From assembly GCA_017856235.1 (NCBI GenBank), contig JAFMFH010000003.1:1-64000 (forward strand): 64,000 nt of DNA. The letters are read 5' to 3'. Positions 406 through 34,217 of this stretch are shown piece by piece (within the stretch, counting starts at the first letter, position 1; each line of letters begins with the position of its first letter). Position numbers and translations under genes: made by a program. The notes under the pieces were generated by a model. The model did not search any database. It saw only the letters and a program-made list of their open reading frames with translations, and had not been told where the DNA came from. This DNA is from Flavobacteriaceae bacterium. Lineage in GTDB: Bacteria; Bacteroidota; Bacteroidia; Flavobacteriales; Flavobacteriaceae.

Positions 406-666
406 ATGGCACATAAAAAAGGAGTTGGTAGTTCAAAAAACGGAAGAGAATCAGAGTCGAAACGACTAGGAGTTAAAATATTCGGTGGACAATTTGCTCA
501 AGCTGGTAATATAATTGTAAGGCAAAGAGGAACTGTTCATAATCCAGGCGAAAATGTTTATCTTGGTAAAGACCACACTCTTCATGCTAAGATTGATGGT
601 ATTGTTACTTTCAAAAAGAAAACAAATAATAAATCTTATGTTTCTATTGAGCCTGCTAAGGCTTAA
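406..666 (+). CDS. rpmA: 50S ribosomal protein L27
   Basis: 86-residue protein beginning [16 protein letters not shown], the standard L27 N-terminus that reaches toward the peptidyl-transferase centre. The [16 protein letters not shown] and HPG-like (HNPGENV) segments are family signatures. The start codon lies 6 bp after the rplU stop, so the two are co-transcribed and probably translationally coupled. There is no cleavable N-terminal extension of the Firmicutes type. Its stop TAA (664-666) interlocks with the stop of the convergent ahcY gene (663-665). Confidence 0.97.
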
Positions 667-1985
667 TACCTATAATATTCTGGTTTAAATGGTCCATTTT
701 TTTGGACTCCAATATATTTTGCTTGATCACTAGACAGTTCTTCAAGTTCTACACCTAATTTATCTAAATGAAGCTTAGCAACCATTTCATCTAAGTTCTT
801 AGGTAGCATATAAACTTTGTTTTCGTATTTATCAGCATTTTTCCAGAGTTCTATTTGTGCTAATACTTGATTAGTGAATGAATTACTCATTACAAAACTT
901 GGGTGACCGGTCGCACAACCCAGATTAACAAGTCTTCCCTCTGCAAGAATTATAATTTCTTTATCCTTAGATATTCTATATGAATCAACTTGAGGTTTAA
1001 TCGTAGTTTTTTGTTCAGAAAAATTAGTTTCTAACCAGTTCATGTCAATCTCGTTGTCAAAATGACCAATATTACATACTATAGTTTTGTCTTTCATCAT
1101 TCTGAATGCTTCTTCATTTACTATATCCTTATTTCCTGTAGCTGTAACTACAATATCGGCATTAGAAACTACAGTCTTTAACTTTTTAACTTCGTAACCA
1201 TCCATTGAGGCTTGAAGAGCACAGATAGGATCTATCTCTGTAACTGTTACTATCGATCCAGCACCTCTGAATGAGGCAGCAGTTCCTTTACCGACATCTC
1301 CATATCCACAGACAACAACTCTTTTACCTGCAAGCATAATATCAGTAGCTCTTCTCACTGCATCAACTGCACTTTCCTTACAACCATATTTATTGTCAAA
1401 CTTAGATTTTGTAACAGAATCATTAACATTAATTGCAGGAAGAAGAAGTGTGCCATTTTTCATTCTTTCATATAATCTATGAACTCCTGTAGTTGTTTCC
1501 TCAGATAAACCTTTAATCCCAGATACAAGTTCTGGAAACTCATCAAGGACCATATTTGTAAGATCACCCCCATCGTCAAGTATCATGTTTAAAGGATTTT
1601 TATCTTCACCAAAAAATAATGTTTGCTCAATACACCAGTTAAATTCATCTTCTGTCATACCTTTCCAAGCATACACTGGGATTCCTTTAGCTGCAACAGC
1701 TGCTGCTGCATGGTCTTGAGTAGAGAATATATTACATGAGCTCCATGTAACCTCAGCTCCCAGATCAACTAATGTTTCAATCAAAACTGCAGTTTGAATT
1801 GTCATATGAAGACAACCTGCAATTCTAGAGCCCTTAAGCGGTTTATCACTCTTGAATCTATCTCTTAATGCCATTAATCCAGGCATTTCTGCCTCTGCAA
1901 GTTCAATCTCTTTCCTTCCCCAATCGGCTAAAGAAATATCTTTTACTTTGTATGCAACGTACTTGCTATCTGTTTTATTTTTCAT
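663..1985 (-). CDS. ahcY: S-adenosylhomocysteine hydrolase
   Basis: Cytosolic NAD-dependent enzyme that splits S-adenosylhomocysteine into adenosine and homocysteine in the methyl cycle. I place the start at the ATG at 1985 ([16 protein letters not shown]), giving 440 residues, the family length; an upstream in-frame ATG at 2039 would add 18 residues and overlap the divergent gene at 2033. Visible motifs are [20 protein letters not shown] near the N-terminus, the NAD-binding [10 protein letters not shown] near residue 227, and the C-terminal KPEYYRY end. It shares overlapping stop codons with rpmA on the other strand. A promoter candidate lies just upstream within the start of the divergent gene. 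Confidence 0.97.
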
Positions 1986-2001
1986 ATGTATATTTATGGA
2001 G

Positions 2002-2032
2002 CTAAAATACCTGAAATAATCTATTTTATCAA
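2002..2032 (-). promoter_or_regulatory. Candidate ahcY promoter
   Basis: On the minus strand, TTG (2030-2032) is followed after 20 nt by TATTTTAG (2002-2009), matching the Bacteroidota -33/-7 pattern TTG-N17-23-TAnnTTTG at all but one -7 position. It sits about 17 bp before the chosen ahcY start, which supports the start at 1985 rather than 2039, since the longer start would lie upstream of this promoter. Pattern match only. Confidence 0.4.
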
Positions 2033-2650
2033 ATGCCATTTCTTAAAGATTTCATAATTAATAATTCTACTAAAATTCTTCTTTGGAAAATAATACCAGG
2101 AGAATTAGATGAGACACAATTAAGTATGGATGACAAAATCTTATTAAAAACAAGAAAGGGAAACAAATCAAAAGAATATTTTCTAGCTGTAAGAAAACTT
2201 ATAAAAAATGAGGATCCAGAAATTATCATTAAGTATGATTTAAATGGGAAACCATACTTGAATACTCAAAAAGGCATATCTATCTCTCATTCTAATGAAA
2301 TAGTTGCTATCGGTATTTCTAATGAAATAGATTATGGAATTGATGTTCAATATAAAACTGATAAAATATTAAACATCCAAAATAAATTTCTAAGTAATAA
2401 TGAAAAGCAAAATCTGGGAGATACCCCCAGTTTAGAATCATTAATAAAATTATGGTCGGCAAAAGAATCAATATATAAGGCTCTAGGTATAAAGGGAGTA
2501 AGTTTTTCAAATGATTTAGAAATTGATATCAAAAAAAATAAAGATTTATTTAAAGTAGGATATTATAAAAAGGATAATAATAAGATTAAATTTGACTTGA
2601 GTTTTTTTAACATAGATGAGTATATAGTTTGTTACGCTAACAAATCTTAA
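2033..2650 (+). CDS. 4'-phosphopantetheinyl transferase, Sfp superfamily
   Basis: 205-residue protein predicted to transfer phosphopantetheine from CoA to a carrier-protein serine, making holo-ACP. The two family signatures are visible: YGIDVQ with Asp104, and [12 protein letters not shown] with Glu145 and Lys149, which bind Mg2+ and act in catalysis. The N-terminal half is divergent, as is usual in Bacteroidota homologues. In this genome the likely substrate is AcpP (62360-62593), but a secondary-metabolite carrier cannot be excluded. The pnuC-like gene follows 3 bp later on the same strand. The ahcY promoter candidate overlaps its first codons. Confidence 0.88.
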
Positions 2651-2653
2651 TTA

Positions 2654-3292
2654 ATGGATCAAATTTTTGACTTTCTTTTTTCTCAGTATCCATCATATTC
2701 TCCTTCATTCATTTATTTGGAATTATTTGCTGTTATAATGAATATTACTAGCGTAGTTTATGCAAAAAAAAATAATATTTTAGTTTATCCTACAGGATTA
2801 ATTGGTACAGGAATTTTTGTCTATATCCTTTTGAATTTTTCATTGTTAGGAGATACTATTATTAATGCCTACTTTTTCTCAATGTCAATATACGGATGGT
2901 ACTTTTGGTCTAGAAAAAAAGATGAAGTTTTTGTTAATCAGGTTTCTACAATAAATCGATATGAAATTAAATATTTATTTATTCTTGCAATTTCAAGCTT
3001 GATTTTCATATACTTTGTTTACGATTATTTTGATAAATGGAATAACTGGACCGCATATGTTGACAACATAACAACTGCAATATTTTTTATTGCAATGTGG
3101 TTAATGGCTAAAAGAAAAGTAGAAAGTTGGATTTTTTGGATTATTGGAGATTTAATAACTGTGCCTTTATACTTTTATAAAGGATTAACTATATCTTCAA
3201 TCCAATATATTATTTTTCTTATACTTGCAGTATTAGGATATATTTCATGGAAAAAAATCTTAGACAAGAATCATCAGAAGTTAAAAAAATAG
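2654..3292 (+). CDS. PnuC-family vitamin transporter (thiamine or nicotinamide riboside)
   Basis: 212-residue polytopic inner-membrane protein with about seven hydrophobic segments. The family WxxW element is present as GWYFW (about residue 82), and the segment SWIFWIIGDLITVPLYFYKG near residue 155-175 is typical of PnuC. Proteins of this family move unphosphorylated vitamins by facilitated diffusion, with trapping by a cytoplasmic kinase. The gene overlaps the next one by 46 bp, and that gene is a P-loop kinase of the NadR type, fitting such trapping. Because the next downstream gene is a TPP-riboswitch-controlled outer-membrane receptor, I favour thiamine as substrate (PnuT type), although sequence annotation would default to nicotinamide riboside. 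Confidence 0.85.
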   Translation: MDQIFDFLFSQYPSYSPSFIYLELFAVIMNITSVVYAKKNNILVYPTGLIGTGIFVYILLNFSLLGDTIINAYFFSMSIYGWYFWSRKKDEVFVNQVSTINRYEIKYLFILAISSLIFIYFVYDYFDKWNNWTAYVDNITTAIFFIAMWLMAKRKVESWIFWIIGDLITVPLYFYKGLTISSIQYIIFLILAVLGYISWKKILDKNHQKLKK

Positions 3293-3813
3293 TTATATGT
3301 GGTCCTGAATCAACTGGAAAGTCTACTTTAACTCAAAATCTATCTTTATATTACAATACTAGTTTCGCTAAAGAATTTGCTAGAGATTTTCTTCAACATA
3401 AATGGGACATAACCAACACAGTATGTTCAAAAAAAGATCTAATTGATATAGTCAAAGGGCAGATAGATAATGAGAATAAAGCACTTTTAAAAGCAAACAA
3501 ATTCTTGTTTTGTGATACTAATATACTTACAACAATTGCATGGTCTAAAACACACTTTAATGGATATTGCAATAAGTGGATCATTGATCAATCAAAAAAA
3601 TTAAGTTATGATTACTACCTAATTTTAAATGTTGACACAGAGTGGGTTCAAGATGATTTAAGAGACAGGCCAAATGACAGAGAAAAAATGTTTGAGGCTC
3701 ATAAATTGGAATTGGATTTGCTTGGGGTGTCCTATGACATTATAAAGGGTTCTGACTATAAGAAAAGATTTGAAGATTCAATAGACCTTATAAGTAAAAA
3801 ATTCTTAATTTAG
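3247..3813 (+). CDS. NadR-type P-loop nucleoside kinase
   Basis: 188-residue protein with Walker A GPESTGKS at about residues 19-26, followed by EFARDFL, and CDTNILTTIAW in the middle, the layout of the C-terminal kinase domain of NadR. It has no NMN adenylyltransferase domain and no DNA-binding domain. The known domain phosphorylates nicotinamide riboside. The 46-bp overlap with the transporter gene is long; no later Met or GTG/TTG start precedes the P-loop in frame, so the overlap appears real. Next to a TPP-controlled receptor it may phosphorylate thiamine instead; this is inference. The gene ends a few bases before the riboswitch. Confidence 0.75.
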   Translation: MEKNLRQESSEVKKIVICGPESTGKSTLTQNLSLYYNTSFAKEFARDFLQHKWDITNTVCSKKDLIDIVKGQIDNENKALLKANKFLFCDTNILTTIAWSKTHFNGYCNKWIIDQSKKLSYDYYLILNVDTEWVQDDLRDRPNDREKMFEAHKLELDLLGVSYDIIKGSDYKKRFEDSIDLISKKFLI

Positions 3814-3816
3814 ATT

Positions 3817-3890
3817 TGAATTGGGGTGCTTAGAATAAGCTGAGATTAAACCCATAGAACTTAGACAGGTAATACTGTGAAAGGAATTTA
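3817..3890 (+). promoter_or_regulatory. TPP riboswitch (THI element)
   Basis: The stretch contains the conserved TPP aptamer pieces in order: GGGGTGC (3823-3829), GCTGAGATT (3839-3847), ACCCAT (3850-3855) and, near the end, the region ACTGTGAAAGGAA (3874-3886). P1 can form between TGAATT (3817-3822) and AATTTA (3885-3890), six pairs with one G-U. The purine-rich AAAGG at 3880-3884 lies 8 nt before the ATG at 3893, so ligand binding would hide the ribosome-binding site directly. No separate terminator hairpin is seen, so control is probably translational. It starts right after the stop of the kinase gene. Confidence 0.93.
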
Positions 3891-3892
3891 TA

Positions 3893-6049
3893 ATGAAAAA
3901 ACATATACTTCTTGTACTAATTAGTACATCATCTTTCTCACAAGAAATAGTTAACCAAAAAGTCCAGGACTCTCTAATTAAAACTCTTAATTTAGAAGAG
4001 GTTACTGTTAATGCTATTAAAGCAAAATACGATACCCCAGTATCATTTGTAAATGTTACTAAGCAAGATCTTGATAAAGTTAATCTTGCTCAAGATATTC
4101 CCAGTCTTTTAAAAAATACACCTTCAGTAATCACTCACTCAGATGGAGGTTCTGGTATTGGATATTCTTCTATCAGAATTAGAGGTTCTGATCAGACAAG
4201 AGTAAATGTGACAATTAATGGAGTCCCATATAATGACTCAGAATCTATGCAAGTTTATTGGGTTGATTTACCTGACTTTGCTTCATCAATTGAAAGTATT
4301 CAAGTTCAAAGAGGAGTGGGGACTTCAACAAATGGATCTGGTGCATTTGGGGGAAGTATTAATATTCAAACAAATGCGGCTTCAGAGAATTCTTTTTTTG
4401 AGGTTAACAATACTTTAGGAAGTTACAACACAATTAAAAATTCAGTTGGCTTCTCAACAGGCTTTATTAATAAATTTGAGTTATCAGGAAGAATCTCTAG
4501 GATTATATCAGACGGTTATATTGATAGATCAGGATCCAACCTTCGCTCATACTTTTTGCAAGGTATCTATAGAGATGAAAATACTCTAGTCAAATTATTA
4601 AATTTTGCTGGTCATGAGATAACAGATCAAGCATGGTATGGAATAGATTCAGCAACTTTAGAATCAAATAGGAAGTATAATATGGCTGGAGAATTTTATG
4701 ATGAAGAAGGAAACTCTTTATATTATAAAGATCAGGTTGACAATTATAAGCAAGATCACTACCAACTCCACTGGAATCAAAATTATATAGGTGGTTGGGC
4801 TTCAAATTTTGGACTTCATTACACATATGGTAGAGGTTTTTATGAGAATTACAATGTAGGATATGATAGCCCTGATTATATTGATAGAAGATGGTTAGAT
4901 AATGATTTTTATGGCTTTATTTTTAGTTTAAGCCGAAGAACAAAAAAATATAATTCTATAATTGGAGGTTCATATAATAAATATTCTGGTGAACATTATG
5001 GAGAGTATTTATGGATTGATCAAGATTCAAATTCTATAAACAGCTATGACTTTAAGGAAAAATTTTACGATGATTATGGAAACAAGAATGAGTTTAATAT
5101 TTATGCTAAAATTGATTATTATATAAATGATAAATTATCTATTTATGGAGATCTACAGTATAGAATTATAAAATATGATGCGGGAATATCTGCTAATTCA
5201 GTTTTTACAGGTTATGTTGAGGAGGGTTTTAGCCGTCTGGATAAGATCTTTAATTTTTTTAACCCAAAGTTTGGACTATTCTATAATTTAAATGATTCTA
5301 ATAATATATATTTTTCTTATGCTAGAGCGCAAAGAGAGCCAACAAGAACAGACTATTCTAATGGAAGTCCTGATGCAGAAAAATTAAATGATTTTGAACT
5401 AGGTTGGAAATTAACTTTAGAGAATAGTTCAATTAATGTTAACGCCTTTTATATGATTTATGAGAATCAACTTGTGTTAACTGGCCAAAGAGATATTAAT
5501 GGATATGAAATTAGAAGAAATATTGGTGAGTCTTTTAGATTAGGAATTGAGTTAGACTCAAACATTACCTTAAGCTCTAAACTAAATTTAAACACAAATC
5601 TTTCAATTAGTAGTAATAAGAACCAAGATTTTTATTCAATTTTTGATGGAATTCTTAAGAACTATGGAAATACAGATTTAGCTTATTCTCCCAGCCTTAT
5701 AGCAAACAATATAATTGATTATTCACCAAATGATAAAGTAATAATTTCATTAAGATCCAATTATGTAAGTGAACAATATTTTGCGCAAACTAATTCACCA
5801 ATTTCTAAACTAGACTCATTTTTTGTTCATGATTTAAACTTCATTCATAAAATGAGTATTGAAGGACTATCAGATGATATAAACCTCAAGATTTTAGTTA
5901 ATAATTTATTTAACTCCAAATATGTTAGCTATGGAGGTTACTATACTTATGATGTGCCAATAGATAATCAAATTAAAACTTATGAGGGGACATATTACTT
6001 CCCTCAAGCAGAGATAAACATACTTATAGGTTTAGACTTTAAGTTTTAA
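3893..6049 (+). CDS. TonB-dependent outer-membrane receptor, probably for thiamine or a precursor
   Basis: 718-residue protein with a short signal peptide (MKKHILLVLISTSSFSQ). A plug domain follows: LEEVTVNA, then IPSLLKNTPSV, SSIRIRGSDQTRVNVTINGVP and ESIQVQRGVGTSTNGSGAFGGSINI, all typical. The rest is a long aromatic-rich beta-barrel ending in phenylalanine (LDFKF), as expected for an outer-membrane barrel. TonB/ExbB/ExbD energise import of the ligand. It lacks a SusC-type carboxypeptidase-like N-terminal repeat and has no SusD partner. The TPP riboswitch directly upstream implies repression by thiamine pyrophosphate and so a thiamine-related ligand. A clear terminator follows the stop. Confidence 0.93.
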   Translation: MKKHILLVLISTSSFSQEIVNQKVQDSLIKTLNLEEVTVNAIKAKYDTPVSFVNVTKQDLDKVNLAQDIPSLLKNTPSVITHSDGGSGIGYSSIRIRGSDQTRVNVTINGVPYNDSESMQVYWVDLPDFASSIESIQVQRGVGTSTNGSGAFGGSINIQTNAASENSFFEVNNTLGSYNTIKNSVGFSTGFINKFELSGRISRIISDGYIDRSGSNLRSYFLQGIYRDENTLVKLLNFAGHEITDQAWYGIDSATLESNRKYNMAGEFYDEEGNSLYYKDQVDNYKQDHYQLHWNQNYIGGWASNFGLHYTYGRGFYENYNVGYDSPDYIDRRWLDNDFYGFIFSLSRRTKKYNSIIGGSYNKYSGEHYGEYLWIDQDSNSINSYDFKEKFYDDYGNKNEFNIYAKIDYYINDKLSIYGDLQYRIIKYDAGISANSVFTGYVEEGFSRLDKIFNFFNPKFGLFYNLNDSNNIYFSYARAQREPTRTDYSNGSPDAEKLNDFELGWKLTLENSSINVNAFYMIYENQLVLTGQRDINGYEIRRNIGESFRLGIELDSNITLSSKLNLNTNLSISSNKNQDFYSIFDGILKNYGNTDLAYSPSLIANNIIDYSPNDKVIISLRSNYVSEQYFAQTNSPISKLDSFFVHDLNFIHKMSIEGLSDDINLKILVNNLFNSKYVSYGGYYTYDVPIDNQIKTYEGTYYFPQAEINILIGLDFKF

Positions 6050-6075
6050 TCAAAATTTTGTAAATTAGAGTAAAT

Positions 6076-6098
6076 ATCCCCTCTAATAGGGGATTTTT
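6076..6098 (+). terminator. Intrinsic terminator after the receptor gene
   Basis: A perfect 6-bp stem ATCCCC/GGGGAT (6076-6081 with 6089-6094), 7-nt loop, and a run of five T (6094-6098). It lies 26 bp after the receptor stop and 9 bp before the greA start, so it separates the thiamine locus from greA. It is the only convincing G+C-rich terminator hairpin I noticed in the window. Confidence 0.85.
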
Positions 6099-6107
6099 GC
6101 ATTGAAT

Positions 6108-6581
6108 ATGAGCAAGATATCATACTACACTGAAAAAGGTTTAAAGGATCTTAGAAAGAAGCTAGATCATTTAAAAGATGTTGAGCGTCCACTTGCATCT
6201 CAAGCTATTGCTGAGGCAAGAGATAAAGGTGATTTAAGTGAAAATGCAGAGTATGATGCTGCAAAAGAAGCACAGGGTCTCTTAGAACTTGAAATTTCTA
6301 AATTAGAAGAAACACTTTCAAATGCCAGAATCATAGATGAATCTCAGCTTGATTCATCAAAGGTATTAGTTCTATCTACTGTTAGAATTAAAAATCTTGA
6401 TAATTCTACAATAATGGAATATAAATTAGTTGCTCAGAGTGAAGCTGACCTTGCAAAAGGAAAAATTTCAGTTGATTCTCCTATTGGAAAGGGTTTACTA
6501 GGTAAAAAAGTTGGAGATACTGCAGAAATCTCTATACCAAATGGTAATGTTAAATTTGAAATTCTTGAAATTTCAAGATAA
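6108..6581 (+). CDS. greA: Transcript cleavage factor GreA
   Basis: 157 residues from ATG 6108 (MSKISYYTEKGLKDLRKKL), the usual GreA length; a TTG at 6102 would add two residues. The N-terminal coiled-coil carries the family segment EARDKGDLSENAEYDAAKEAQ, with the acidic tip residues that place Mg2+ in the RNA polymerase secondary channel. The C-terminal FKBP-like domain ends SIPNGNVKFEILEI. GreA rescues backtracked polymerase by stimulating transcript cleavage. Its TAA overlaps the next ATG by one base (TAATG), so translation is probably coupled. Confidence 0.97.
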   Translation: MSKISYYTEKGLKDLRKKLDHLKDVERPLASQAIAEARDKGDLSENAEYDAAKEAQGLLELEISKLEETLSNARIIDESQLDSSKVLVLSTVRIKNLDNSTIMEYKLVAQSEADLAKGKISVDSPIGKGLLGKKVGDTAEISIPNGNVKFEILEISR

Positions 6582-6970
6582 TGGCATCAATTTTTACAAA
6601 AATTATTCAAGGAAAAATACCATCATATAAGATTTATGAAGACGAAACTTATTATGCTTTTCTTGATATTAATCCAAATGCATTAGGTCATACATTATGT
6701 ATTCCAAAAAAAGAAGTAGATGAGCTATTTGATCTTGACGATGAAACATACAAAGGCTTAATGATTTTTTCAAAAAAAATTGCTCGAGCACTAAAAAAAG
6801 CATTAGATTGTAAAAGAATTGGATTAAGTGTAATAGGACTGGAAGTCCCGCATGTTCATGTGCATTTGATACCTATTAACAAGATGGATGATATGTCGTT
6901 TAACTCAAAGATTAAATTAAGTGATGATGAGCTTAACGATATAATGGAAAAAATTAAATCTTATTTATAA
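6581..6970 (+). CDS. HIT-family nucleotide hydrolase (HinT-like)
   Basis: 129-residue protein with the histidine-triad signature HVHVHL (His91, His93, His95) after GLEVP, and the N-terminal FTKIIQGKIPSYKIYED typical of HinT. These cytosolic enzymes hydrolyse purine nucleoside phosphoramidates such as aminoacyl-adenylate adducts. Length is slightly above the E. coli protein. It is joined to greA and to the next gene by one-base TAATG overlaps at both ends, so the three form an operon. The precise substrate cannot be read from sequence. Confidence 0.93.
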   Translation: MASIFTKIIQGKIPSYKIYEDETYYAFLDINPNALGHTLCIPKKEVDELFDLDDETYKGLMIFSKKIARALKKALDCKRIGLSVIGLEVPHVHVHLIPINKMDDMSFNSKIKLSDDELNDIMEKIKSYL

Positions 6971-7338
6971 TGGAATTATTAGGAAAAATTAAACATATTG
7001 GTGATATCAAAACATATGGAGACAACGGTTTCAGAAAAAGAGAACTTGTCCTTACAACTGAAGAACAATATCCTCAACATATTTTGATTGAATTTATCCA
7101 AAATAACTGCGAGTTATTAGACAATTATAGTATTGGACAAACTGTAAGAATTGGAATCAATATTAGGGGGAGAGAGTGGGAGAGTCCTGATCAAGGCATA
7201 AAATATTTCAATTCAATACAAGGCTGGAGAATAGAATCTTTAGATGATCAAGTTATGGATTCTGCTGCGGAGGACTTACCAATAGAAAGTGAGAATTACC
7301 CTAAAGATGACCTAACAGAAGATGACTTACCTTTCTAG
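6970..7338 (+). CDS. DUF3127 protein with SSB-like acidic C-terminal tip
   Basis: 122 residues. The N-terminal ~85 residues match the DUF3127 pattern (MELLGKIKHIGDIKTYG, FRKRELVLTTEEQYPQHILIEF, GINIRGREW), a small predicted OB-fold protein common in Bacteroidota and without a firm function. The C-terminal ~35 residues are acidic and disordered-looking and end DDLPF, which closely resembles the DDDIPF tip by which single-strand DNA-binding protein recruits repair and replication partners. I infer nucleic-acid binding. It is last in the greA-HIT operon; its stop abuts the stop of convergent tsf with no bases between. Confidence 0.8.
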   Translation: MELLGKIKHIGDIKTYGDNGFRKRELVLTTEEQYPQHILIEFIQNNCELLDNYSIGQTVRIGINIRGREWESPDQGIKYFNSIQGWRIESLDDQVMDSAAEDLPIESENYPKDDLTEDDLPF

Positions 7339-23955: not shown

Positions 23956-24777
23956 ATGGATCAAATAATTGAATATTTCTCAAACCTAGATCCAGTATTG
24001 GGAGCATTGTATGCAACCTTATTTACCTGGGGTCTAACTGCACTTGGAGCTTCTTTAGTATTTCTTTTTAAATCAATGAGTAGAGCGACTTTGGATGGCA
24101 TGTTAGGTTTCACTGGTGGTGTAATGGTTGCAGCTAGTTTTTGGAGTCTTTTGTCTCCAGCAATTGAAATGAGTGCAGGCGAAGGCTTTATCAAGGTTAT
24201 GCCATCTGCAATTGGATTTGGTTTAGGAGCATTATTCATATTTGCATTTGATAAAATATTACCTCATTTACATATTAATTTTAAACAAGAAGAAGCTGAG
24301 GGTATTAAAACTCCATGGAGAAGGACAACCCTTCTAACTCTTGCGATTACTTTACATAATATACCAGAGGGACTTGCTGTAGGTGTTTTATTTGGTGGGG
24401 TAGCTGCTGGAATTCCTGAAGCATCTGTTGCTGGTGCTGTTGTTCTTGCTTTTGGTATTGGACTTCAGAACTTTCCCGAAGGAATAGCCGTAGCAATGCC
24501 TCTAAGAAGGGCAGGTTTGAGTAAATTTAAAAGCTTCTGGTATGGTCAGCTTTCTGCTATTGTGGAGCCGATAGCTGGAGTTATTGGAGCACTTGCAGTA
24601 ACTTTCTTTACACCTATTTTACCTTATGCATTATCATTTGCAGCAGGAGCTATGATATTTGTTGTAGTTGAAGAGGTCATTCCTGAGACTCAGCTTGATA
24701 AATACACTGATATTGCAACTTTAGGATTTATAGGTGGATTTATAGTAATGATGATCCTTGATGTAGCATTGGGTTAA
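23956..24777 (+). CDS. ZIP-family divalent metal transporter
   Basis: 273 residues from ATG 23956 (MDQIIEYFSNLDPVLG); an open frame runs 60 bp further upstream but lacks family similarity. Eight TM segments are visible. Metal-site motifs are HNIPEGLAVG in TM4 and QNFPEGIAVAMPLRRAG in TM5, plus VEPIAGVIG and VVEEVIPE. The sequence is of the ZupT/GufA group, which imports Zn2+ and other divalent metals down a gradient. Its last 4 bp overlap the stop of convergent thiL. Confidence 0.92.
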   Translation: MDQIIEYFSNLDPVLGALYATLFTWGLTALGASLVFLFKSMSRATLDGMLGFTGGVMVAASFWSLLSPAIEMSAGEGFIKVMPSAIGFGLGALFIFAFDKILPHLHINFKQEEAEGIKTPWRRTTLLTLAITLHNIPEGLAVGVLFGGVAAGIPEASVAGAVVLAFGIGLQNFPEGIAVAMPLRRAGLSKFKSFWYGQLSAIVEPIAGVIGALAVTFFTPILPYALSFAAGAMIFVVVEEVIPETQLDKYTDIATLGFIGGFIVMMILDVALG

Positions 24778-25826
24778 TCTCTATTTCTAAAAGAATCCCA
24801 GCCTGAGCTACTAAGATTTATTTTTTGACCCAAACTAGTGATCATACAATTATCATTTTTTTTATTTAAACATGATCCAATAATTGACAAGAAGTCAGAA
24901 TTTTCAATTTTTTTCTTAAATCTTTTGGGAACAGTAAATAATAATTCATAGTCTTCTCCTCCATTAAGAGCAGCAATTGTTGGACTAATTTTAAACTCAT
25001 CACATACTCTCTTGGTCTCCTCTGAAATAGGTATTTTATCTTCATATATATGAAAAGATAAACCTGAATTATCAGAGAGATGATTAATTTCTGACGAAAG
25101 ACCATCACTTATGTCTATCATTGAGGTTGGATTTATATTTAGTTCTTTTAGATGGTTTATAATATCTAATCTTGCTTCTGGCTTTAGCTGTCTTTCTATA
25201 CAATAACTATAATTAGAAAGATCTGGTTGAGATTTAGGATTAACCTCAAAAACTTTTTTCTCTCTTTCAAGTACTTGGAGTCCCATATATGCAGACCCTA
25301 GGTCACCTGAAACTACAAGTAAATCTTCTTCTTTAAAGCCTTTTCTTAGTGTAAACTTATTACTCTCCGTATTACCAATACATGTAACAGATATCATTAA
25401 TCCTTTATTAGTAGAAGTTGTATCACCACCAATTAAGTCAACTCCATAAAATGAGCATGCAAGTTTTATGCCCTCATACAGTTCCTCTAAAGCATCAATT
25501 TTAAATCTGTTTGAAACAGCAATAGAAACTAATACCTGTGATGGTTTTACATTCATTGAAATTACATCAGAGATATTTACTACAACACTCTTGTAACCAA
25601 GATGTTTTAAAGGAACATAAGATAAATCAAAATGAACACCTTCAACCAAAATATCTTGAGATATTGCTATGTTGGTTTTATCAAAACATAAAATTGCTGC
25701 ATCATCACCAATATCAACTTTTGTAGAATTATTCTTGTTTTTAAAAGATTTTGTTATCCTTTTAATAAGCTCTATTTCACTGATACTTTGAACATCATCT
25801 GAAGTATCTTCTTCTTTATCATCCAT
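24774..25826 (-). CDS. thiL: Thiamine-monophosphate kinase
   Basis: 350 residues. Family signatures: VDIGDDAAIL (metal-binding Asp pair) near residue 37, SQDILVEGVHFDL, VVVNISDVISM, LIGGDTTST and MIDISDGLSSEINHL. It phosphorylates thiamine monophosphate to the cofactor TPP. It is the only thi biosynthetic gene in the window. With a thiamine kinase (possibly the NadR-like protein at 3247) it would complete salvage from imported thiamine; this link is inference. A perfect -7 box ends 4 bp before the ATG, predicting a leaderless mRNA. Confidence 0.95.
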   Translation of the reverse strand: MDDKEEDTSDDVQSISEIELIKRITKSFKNKNNSTKVDIGDDAAILCFDKTNIAISQDILVEGVHFDLSYVPLKHLGYKSVVVNISDVISMNVKPSQVLVSIAVSNRFKIDALEELYEGIKLACSFYGVDLIGGDTTSTNKGLMISVTCIGNTESNKFTLRKGFKEEDLLVVSGDLGSAYMGLQVLEREKKVFEVNPKSQPDLSNYSYCIERQLKPEARLDIINHLKELNINPTSMIDISDGLSSEINHLSDNSGLSFHIYEDKIPISEETKRVCDEFKISPTIAALNGGEDYELLFTVPKRFKKKIENSDFLSIIGSCLNKKNDNCMITSLGQKINLSSSGWDSFRNRD

Positions 25827-32356: not shown

Positions 32357-33655
32357 TTGACTTCTAAACTAAACATTTTAATTATTACTTACTATTGGCC
32401 ACCATCAGGTGGATCAGGTGTTCAGAGATGGATGTATTTTTCAAAGTATTTAAAAGAAATGGGGCATAATCCTATTGTTATTACAGTAGATGAAAAATAC
32501 GCATCATACAATCAAAAGGATTACTCTCTATTAAAAGAAATAGATAATATTGAAACATACAAAACAAAAAGTTTTGATCTTCTAAAACTATACTCATTTA
32601 TAAAATCTGGAAATACAACAAAAAGTATACCTCAATCATATATTCCAAATAAGTCATTCTTTGATAAGTTTACATCATTTTTAAGACTTAATTTCTTCAT
32701 TCCTGATTCAAGAGTTGGCTGGAATCAATATGCATATAATAAAGCTATTAATATAATTAGAAATAAAAACATTGATTGTCTAATAACAACTGGTCCCCCT
32801 CATTCAACTCACTTAATAGGACTAAAAATTCATAATAAATATAAATTCAAATGGATAGTTGACTTAAGAGATCCGTGGACTGAAATATTTTACTTAAAAA
32901 ATAGATTTAGATTTAATTTTTCAAGACAAAAGAACAAAAAACTTGAATCAGAAGTTTTAGAAAATTCTGATGCAATTATTACTACAGTTGGAGAGAAATA
33001 TCATAAAATTTTATCTGATAAAGTGTCTAATAAAGAAAAAATTTTTAAGATTTATAATGGGTTTGATAAATCAGTTTATGAGAAAATTAGTATTGATAAA
33101 ACAAATCATTTTAATATTGTTTTTACAGGTGTTTTATCAAAAAATCATAATTATAAAGTCTTCAGGGATGCAATTGAAGTATTAAGTCCAAAAAAAAATG
33201 GACTTAGGATAAAGTTAATTTTAGCTGGCAAAATTGATGTGGATTTAAAAAATATTTTTTCTAAAAATATTGAAATAGATTACAAAGGATATGTAAATCA
33301 TGAAACAGCAATTAGGTTAATAAAATCATCTCATTTACTTGTTAATTTCATGTATGAAAATACTGAGGAAACAGATATGGTGTCAGGAAAACTTATAGAG
33401 TATATTGCAAGTGGAACACCAATTATTAATTTTTCAAACTCTGGGAAGGAGTCTGAAAATGTTTTAAAGCTTTCAAAAAAGTCATTTAATGCAGATTCTT
33501 CTTCTGAAAAGAAAGTTGTAAAATTTATTACTGATGAATATAATGACTGGATAGCAGGAGATTACAAAAAGAGCGCTGTAGATAACATTGACTATTTATC
33601 AAGAGAGAGTCTAACAAAGAAACTACTTGACATAATTAATAAAATTAACTCTTAG
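32357..33655 (+). CDS. Family 4-type glycosyltransferase
   Basis: 432 residues starting from a TTG at 32357, one base after the DUF3078 stop: TSKLNILIITYYWPPSGGSGVQRWMYFSKYL. This GT-B N-terminal pattern with YYWPPSGGSGVQRW is typical of Bacteroidota GT4 enzymes. VDLRDPW near residue 170 and LIEYIASGTPII near residue 350 (nucleotide-sugar domain) support it. It probably builds surface polysaccharide or a glycolipid; donor and acceptor are unknown. Its 3' end overlaps convergent nadD by 11 bp. Confidence 0.85.
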   Translation: MTSKLNILIITYYWPPSGGSGVQRWMYFSKYLKEMGHNPIVITVDEKYASYNQKDYSLLKEIDNIETYKTKSFDLLKLYSFIKSGNTTKSIPQSYIPNKSFFDKFTSFLRLNFFIPDSRVGWNQYAYNKAINIIRNKNIDCLITTGPPHSTHLIGLKIHNKYKFKWIVDLRDPWTEIFYLKNRFRFNFSRQKNKKLESEVLENSDAIITTVGEKYHKILSDKVSNKEKIFKIYNGFDKSVYEKISIDKTNHFNIVFTGVLSKNHNYKVFRDAIEVLSPKKNGLRIKLILAGKIDVDLKNIFSKNIEIDYKGYVNHETAIRLIKSSHLLVNFMYENTEETDMVSGKLIEYIASGTPIINFSNSGKESENVLKLSKKSFNADSSSEKKVVKFITDEYNDWIAGDYKKSAVDNIDYLSRESLTKKLLDIINKINS

Positions 33656-34217
33656 AATTTAAAAAACTGATTACTTCCTTTGGTACAAGATGATCTATTT
33701 TCTGGTCTTCTTTCAATAGGTATCTAATGTGGCTACTTGAAATTTTAATTTTTGGTGCATCAACTAATTTTATGTTACTATTTTTTAATATTTCATCAGG
33801 AATTTTATGTTCAGTATCTCTAGGGTAAACATAAACTTCAGCAATTTCTATAATTTCTTCATAATCTTTCCATTTATTAAACCCTACTAAGTTATCCTCT
33901 CCAATTAAAAGGATAAGGTTGTTGTATTCATGTCTTTTCTTAAACTCCTTTAATGTGTCAATTGTGAAATTAGGCCTAGACATTTTAAATTCAATATCAG
34001 AAACCTTTACATTTTTGAAGCTTTTAAAAACAGTTTTAGCTAGTTCAAGTCTTTCAATATCATTAATAAAAGCATCCTCAATTTTAAATGGACTTTGAGG
34101 GCTAATCACTACAAGGACTTCATCTAATTCTGGCAGTTCTGAAAAATACTTTGCTAATGTAACATGACCATTATGAATTGGGTTGAAAGTTCCAAGATAC
34201 AAACCTACATTACTCAT
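33645..34217 (-). CDS. nadD: Nicotinate-nucleotide adenylyltransferase
   Basis: 190 residues. The nucleotidyltransferase signature GTFNPIHNGHVTLA near residue 9 and the C-terminal SSHIRYLL (ISSTxxR-like) motif are clear. It makes nicotinate adenine dinucleotide from NaMN and ATP in NAD synthesis. It overlaps the gmk stop by 8 bp (gmk first), so the pair is co-transcribed, and it overlaps the glycosyltransferase gene at the 3' end. Confidence 0.95.
   Translation of the reverse strand: MSNVGLYLGTFNPIHNGHVTLAKYFSELPELDEVLVVISPQSPFKIEDAFINDIERLELAKTVFKSFKNVKVSDIEFKMSRPNFTIDTLKEFKKRHEYNNLILLIGEDNLVGFNKWKDYEEIIEIAEVYVYPRDTEHKIPDEILKNSNIKLVDAPKIKISSSHIRYLLKEDQKIDHLVPKEVISFLNSKS

Follow-up and report, generated by a model that had tools for sequence, protein, structure and literature searches.

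A marine Flavobacteriaceae bacterium with a small, reduced genome (1.22 Mb assembly, 92% complete) is unable to make vitamin B1, and three of its neighbouring genes appear to take up thiamine and retain it in the cell by phosphorylation. We analysed the window, that is, the whole 64,000-nucleotide stretch at the start of contig JAFMFH010000003.1. We read the locus as a thiamine salvage system consisting of a TonB-dependent receptor, a PnuT-type transporter, a stand-alone kinase and ThiL, in which the kinase replaces thiamine pyrophosphokinase (TPK); we put the probability of this reading at about three in four (0.76). Marine Flavobacteriia are major consumers of vitamin B1.

The genes of the locus lie in the order phosphopantetheinyl transferase, PnuC-like transporter, kinase, TPP riboswitch, TonB receptor, all on the forward strand, with 46 bases shared by the transporter and kinase genes. 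The relevant features of the window are as follows.

2033–2650, forward strand: phosphopantetheinyl transferase, first in the gene order.
2654–3292, forward strand: PnuC-family inner-membrane transporter (PF04973, E 1.1e-48), predicted PnuT (thiamine facilitator).
3247–3813, forward strand: stand-alone kinase with the NadR ribosylnicotinamide-kinase fold (PF13521, AAA_28/NadR-RNK-like, E 8.8e-34), predicted thiamine kinase.
3812–3902, forward strand: TPP riboswitch aptamer (RF00059), 58.2 bits, above the gathering score.
3817–3822, forward strand: P1 5′ strand TGAATT, partner of 3885–3890.
3880–3890, forward strand: ribosome-binding region AAAGGA overlapping the P1 3′ strand AATTTA; the GGA–ATG distance and P1 pairing are conserved in the genus.
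3893–6049, forward strand: TonB-dependent receptor (PF00593/PF07715), predicted OMthi-type thiamine receptor.
24774–25826, reverse strand: ThiL thiamine-phosphate kinase (TIGR01379, 287 bits against a cut-off of 184), last step of the inferred route.
33645–34217, reverse strand: NadD nicotinate-nucleotide adenylyltransferase (TIGR00482, 140.6 bits against a cut-off of 112), which bears on an alternative role in NAD metabolism.

A wider order of AHCY, phosphopantetheinyl transferase, PnuC, kinase, receptor, GreA and HIT genes (window 663–7338) is kept in many Flavobacteriaceae, with no obvious metabolic reason.

In the proposed mechanism, the receptor would carry thiamine over the outer membrane and would be produced only when TPP is scarce, with TPP binding closing P1 over the receptor's ribosome-binding site. 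The PnuC-like protein (PnuT) would then allow thiamine to diffuse across the inner membrane, the stand-alone NadR-RNK-like kinase would trap it by conversion to thiamine monophosphate (TMP), and ThiL would convert TMP to TPP. The kinase would stand in for TPK, which fills this slot in Bacteroides-type operons.

The covariance model for RF00059 scored the window aptamer at 58.2 bits against a gathering score of 54.3, confirming the first-pass annotation of a TPP aptamer between the kinase and receptor genes; this was the only match in the 1.22 Mb assembly. Counting the window, the genus has 17 kinase loci, and each carries this aptamer 3′ of the kinase; the Rfam cut-off was exceeded in 13 of the 16 other loci, and the remaining loci share the same aptamer core. 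The annotation had also claimed that the aptamer hides the receptor's ribosome-binding site, and the anatomy agrees. The GGA motif at 3883–3885 is part of the conserved 3′ segment of the aptamer, and the P1 3′ strand (3885–3890) ends 2 nt before the receptor ATG at 3893. In the window, P1 consists of six uninterrupted base pairs, and at least five P1 pairs form in the tested register in all but three of the 17 genus sequences (the exceptions are L014, L017 and L018). A plain MFE fold by itself did not form P1, as would be expected of a ligand-stabilised helix. Conservation of this anatomy in the genus means that masking of the ribosome-binding region by P1 is well supported; repression of the receptor on TPP binding is the predicted consequence. 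In the window, the riboswitch is placed to control the receptor only, not the transporter–kinase pair.

The Rfam gathering cut-off missed most Flavobacteriaceae aptamers, and a custom covariance model was therefore built from 19 aptamers. Intact-core TPP aptamers missed by the RF00059 cut-off in Flavobacteriales (L033, L034, L036, L040–L042, L044–L046, L048 and L049) were recovered by the custom model with strong scores. A motif search hinted at a TPP aptamer immediately 5′ of pnuC in Arenibacter (L191), but this candidate was dropped because both the Rfam and the custom model were blank there.

The case for a thiamine kinase starts from the gene content of the genus, for which 25 genomes were searched (G000–G024). 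ThiE (PF02581, TMP synthase) was found in none of the 25, a sub-cut-off match in G006 not being counted, and TPK (PF04263) was likewise found in none. ThiL was present in all 25, so that loss of ThiE and TPK is unlikely to be an assembly artefact even though most of the genomes are incomplete. With ThiE and TPK missing, and ThiL kept together with a single TPP-regulated receptor, there is therefore a thiamine-phosphorylating step that lacks a known enzyme. Judged by gene content, imported thiamine is able to reach TPP in the genus only via some thiamine kinase. The genome's own APH protein was considered for this role and rejected: its score lies well under the ThiK cut-off, and the gene upstream of it is, judged from sequence, acyl-CoA dehydrogenase-like. 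Among eight kinase-bearing genomes checked outside the genus, three (G034, G043 and G056) carry the kinase and ThiL while lacking TPK, any APH-type kinase and any ThiE above cut-off; therefore a ThiK-like enzyme cannot be the general answer.

The first-pass annotation placed ThiL at the end of the route, and the gene is indeed located where it said. Its presence does not by itself prove that TMP is the product, and we rejected that argument: ThiL is near-universal in Bacteroidia (196 of 197 genomes). This includes 29 genomes with TPK but without ThiE, where TPK should make ThiL unnecessary. Since ThiL is therefore not diagnostic, and since the kinase sits in TPK's operon slot, the kinase might be a pyrophosphokinase that makes TPP directly, as TPK does, leaving ThiL outside the route. 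NadR-RNK and related P-loop kinases transfer one phosphate, however, and ThiL is retained throughout the genus although ThiE is absent. We consider direct synthesis of TPP very unlikely, and TMP is the predicted product.

To see how the kinase is distributed, its profile was run on 197 Bacteroidia genomes that were at least 90% complete, and TPK, ThiL, ThiE and the riboswitch were searched for in the same set. Two-domain NadR proteins were left out, a ThiE call required E < 1e-24, which kept TenI-like paralogs out, and G206 was counted as kinase-positive, as the tree showed its kinase to be N-terminal. Omission of one endosymbiont-sized genome left 196, of which 91 have only the kinase, 51 only ThiE and 29 only TPK; a further 10 have the kinase and ThiE, six have ThiE and TPK, four have all three and five have none. 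A kinase or TPK is thus present in 120 of 125 ThiE-free genomes compared with 20 of 71 ThiE-bearing genomes. Relatives are not independent, so ThiE was shuffled within families: 171 genomes have exactly one of ThiE and (kinase or TPK), against 158.8 ± 2.7 after shuffling, and none of 20 000 shuffles was as high as observed. Among the TPK-free genomes of the eight mixed families, 26 have the kinase and no ThiE, 13 have ThiE and no kinase, two have both and one has neither. Genome reduction in general would not lead to such an either-or distribution. The counter-examples are 14 kinase genomes that also have ThiE, four of which also have TPK.

Gene context ties the same kinase to TPP-regulated uptake. 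Of 80 named Flavobacteriaceae loci, 78 have a PnuC gene next to the kinase, as do 57 of 71 further loci. TPP aptamers were found in 51 of the 80 named loci with the 19-aptamer model, always on the kinase's strand, and in 28 of the 71 further loci, always on that strand and always directly before a receptor. The aptamer is on the kinase strand even where no PnuC lies beside the kinase (L044, L045, L092, L098 and L135). None of the seven two-domain NadR loci has a TPP riboswitch. These counts argue against the possibility, raised in the first-pass annotation, that homologous pairs mostly sit beside NAD genes, and they uphold its linking of the PnuC-like/NadR-like pair to thiamine, with thiamine as the inferred substrate of the kinase. 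Against this link, there is no aptamer within about 6 kb in 29 of the 80 named loci and 43 of the 71 others.

Three genomes of one family (L140, L141 and L145) have the order riboswitch, receptor, PnuC, TPK, which matches the known Bacteroides operon. In kinase genomes the order is PnuC, kinase, (other genes), riboswitch, receptor, and the kinase holds TPK's slot. The window receptor is 37–39% identical over its full length to the receptors of the TPK-containing operons and 26% identical to a NadR-linked receptor. In the PnuC tree, the NadR-linked proteins from five loci form a clade (support 100/99) that excludes the window transporter and stands apart from the Flavobacteriaceae kinase-linked group; the sister position of three TPK-linked proteins to the kinase-linked group has a support of only 85/84. 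The annotation's view of transporter and receptor as thiamine importers is supported, but these roles are not new (PnuT/OMthi, PMC5613172).

In some families the kinase lies beside ThiE or TMP-TENI-like genes (L099, L110, L122, L125 and L127). A TMP-TENI-like gene is found just upstream of the PnuC–kinase pair in four of these loci (L099 4707, L110 4819, L125 4832 and L127 2526), and the only one scanned, in L110, is far below the ThiE cut-off. This context fits a role in thiamine metabolism, but such neighbours could also be taken to mean that the substrate is one of the thiamine precursors, HMP or hydroxyethylthiazole, and not thiamine itself. We regard this last reading as extremely improbable: lacking ThiE, the genus could not join the two halves, and known TPP-regulated PnuC proteins carry thiamine (PMC7749635, PMC5613172).

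The window kinase has 188 residues, with a Walker A motif GPESTGKS, D90–T91 and lid residues R139/R145. Both sequence and predicted structure group it with the NadR kinase domain, and its AlphaFold model (pLDDT 94) has NadR 8x7f as the best PDB match. All family models name it NadR-related. It belongs to PF13521, not to the TPK domain family, and PF04263 is absent from the genome. The match to TIGR01526 covers only the C-terminal half (162–325) and reaches 96.6 against a cut-off of 341. The window kinase carries no NMN adenylyltransferase domain, and a further NadR-like match was absent from every genus genome. In a 97-sequence tree, all two-domain NadR kinases form one clade (98/91) and every stand-alone kinase falls outside; the rows L158 and L156, labelled K, are two-domain proteins with the kinase domain starting at residues 151 and 172, respectively. 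At positions 72 and 76 the stand-alone kinases conserve Q and E, where most NadR have H and I; at 137 they conserve D, against G in every NadR compared, and at 142 P. These four residues are candidates for determining substrate specificity; published NR-binding residues of NadR were not found in the open-access literature searched.

Several relatives have additional domains. In L036 (5797–7911) the kinase is fused to DUF4301 (PF14134) in a protein of ∼700 residues, suggesting a functional link for that uncharacterised domain. Fusions to aldose 1-epimerase (L128, 5066–6508) and to a GNAT acetyltransferase (L152, 6021–7004) were also seen, and large C-terminal extensions, likewise giving ∼700 residues in all but recognised by length only, occur in L138, L139, L185, L195, L209, L218, L228–L230 and L239.

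Taken at face value, the family models and the fold would make the PnuC–kinase pair an importer and phosphorylator of nicotinamide riboside, as annotated, with the thiamine receptor next door incidental. None of the 25 genus genomes encodes NadA (quinolinate synthase), so NAD is probably made via pyridine salvage; nicotinamide riboside could be the source of the pyridine, and this reading keeps some weight. NadD is also present and might accept NMN. Nevertheless, the kinase has neither the adenylyltransferase domain nor a second NadR-like protein to accompany it, genuine nicotinamide riboside loci have two-domain NadR in clades of their own and without a TPP riboswitch, and a nicotinamide riboside role predicts no complementarity with ThiE or TPK. 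We therefore judge it unlikely. The shared fold, and the likely auxotrophy of these reduced genomes for both vitamins, would also be compatible with a broad-specificity kinase that phosphorylates both thiamine and nicotinamide riboside. Five genomes (G025, G073, G188, G203 and G249) keep both the kinase and a two-domain NadR, however, suggesting a division of labour; in G025 (Flavobacteriaceae) the PnuC–kinase pair (L038) coexists with a separate receptor–PnuC–NadR cluster that has no riboswitch (L039). Dual specificity seems quite unlikely to us.

The comparative evidence thus supports well the assignment of the kinase as a putative thiamine kinase. Beyond the window, we think it probable that B1 salvage in about half of the sampled Bacteroidia (105 of 196 genomes) normally begins with a so far unassigned class of thiamine kinases, derived from the NadR RNK fold, which has replaced TPK in PnuT operons and is now annotated as NAD metabolism or as a generic AAA ATPase. 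Plasmid relatives, for example, carry either the label 'AAA family ATPase' or that of an ATPase/kinase with a part in NAD metabolism. If named, the kinase would close a pathway gap, so that B1 auxotrophy and uptake could be called correctly from genomes and metatranscriptomes, and would correct a widely copied NAD annotation. It would also provide an example, open to testing, of a nucleoside-type kinase that has moved from one vitamin to another.

Thiamine is a transport substrate of PnuT, and Bacteroides depends on TPP-regulated receptors to take it up (PMC5613172; PMC7749635); PnuT is described as a thiamine facilitator (Jaehme et al. 2018, as cited in PMC7749635). Pathway reconstructions score thiamine auxotrophs by ThiL/ThiN alone and list no thiamine kinase (PMC6593275). 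The kinase is the new part, since both thiamine transport by PnuC-type proteins (PnuT) and TonB receptors under TPP control (OMthi) are already known. The first-pass annotation held that thiamine kinase activity appears not to be an established function for this family; the open-access papers searched likewise contained no such assignment for a NadR-like kinase, although an earlier prediction in the subscription literature is possible.

The closest known system is the OMthi-pnuT-tnr3 (TPK) operon of gut Bacteroidetes (Costliow and Degnan 2017, PMC5613172), which shares with the window a TPP riboswitch, a TonB receptor, a PnuC-family transporter and a dedicated thiamine-phosphorylating enzyme, the last being predicted here. 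The window differs in having a NadR-RNK-like kinase in place of TPK, another gene order and a riboswitch that follows the transporter–kinase pair. Its transporter resembles PnuT in PF04973 membership and thiamine gene context, with a predicted specificity for thiamine, but has a partner kinase with the NadR fold. That kinase shares its fold, catalytic motifs and 25–27% identity in the best structural matches with NadR ribosylnicotinamide kinase (1lw7, 8x7f and 6gyf); unlike NadR, it has no adenylyltransferase domain, falls in a separate clade, carries Q72/E76 where most NadR have H/I, and has the lid motif D-L-R-D-x-P-x-x-R where NadR has D-G-L-R. The predicted reaction, thiamine to TMP, is that of the thiamine kinase ThiK/YcfN, which has the APH fold, unrelated to that of the window kinase.
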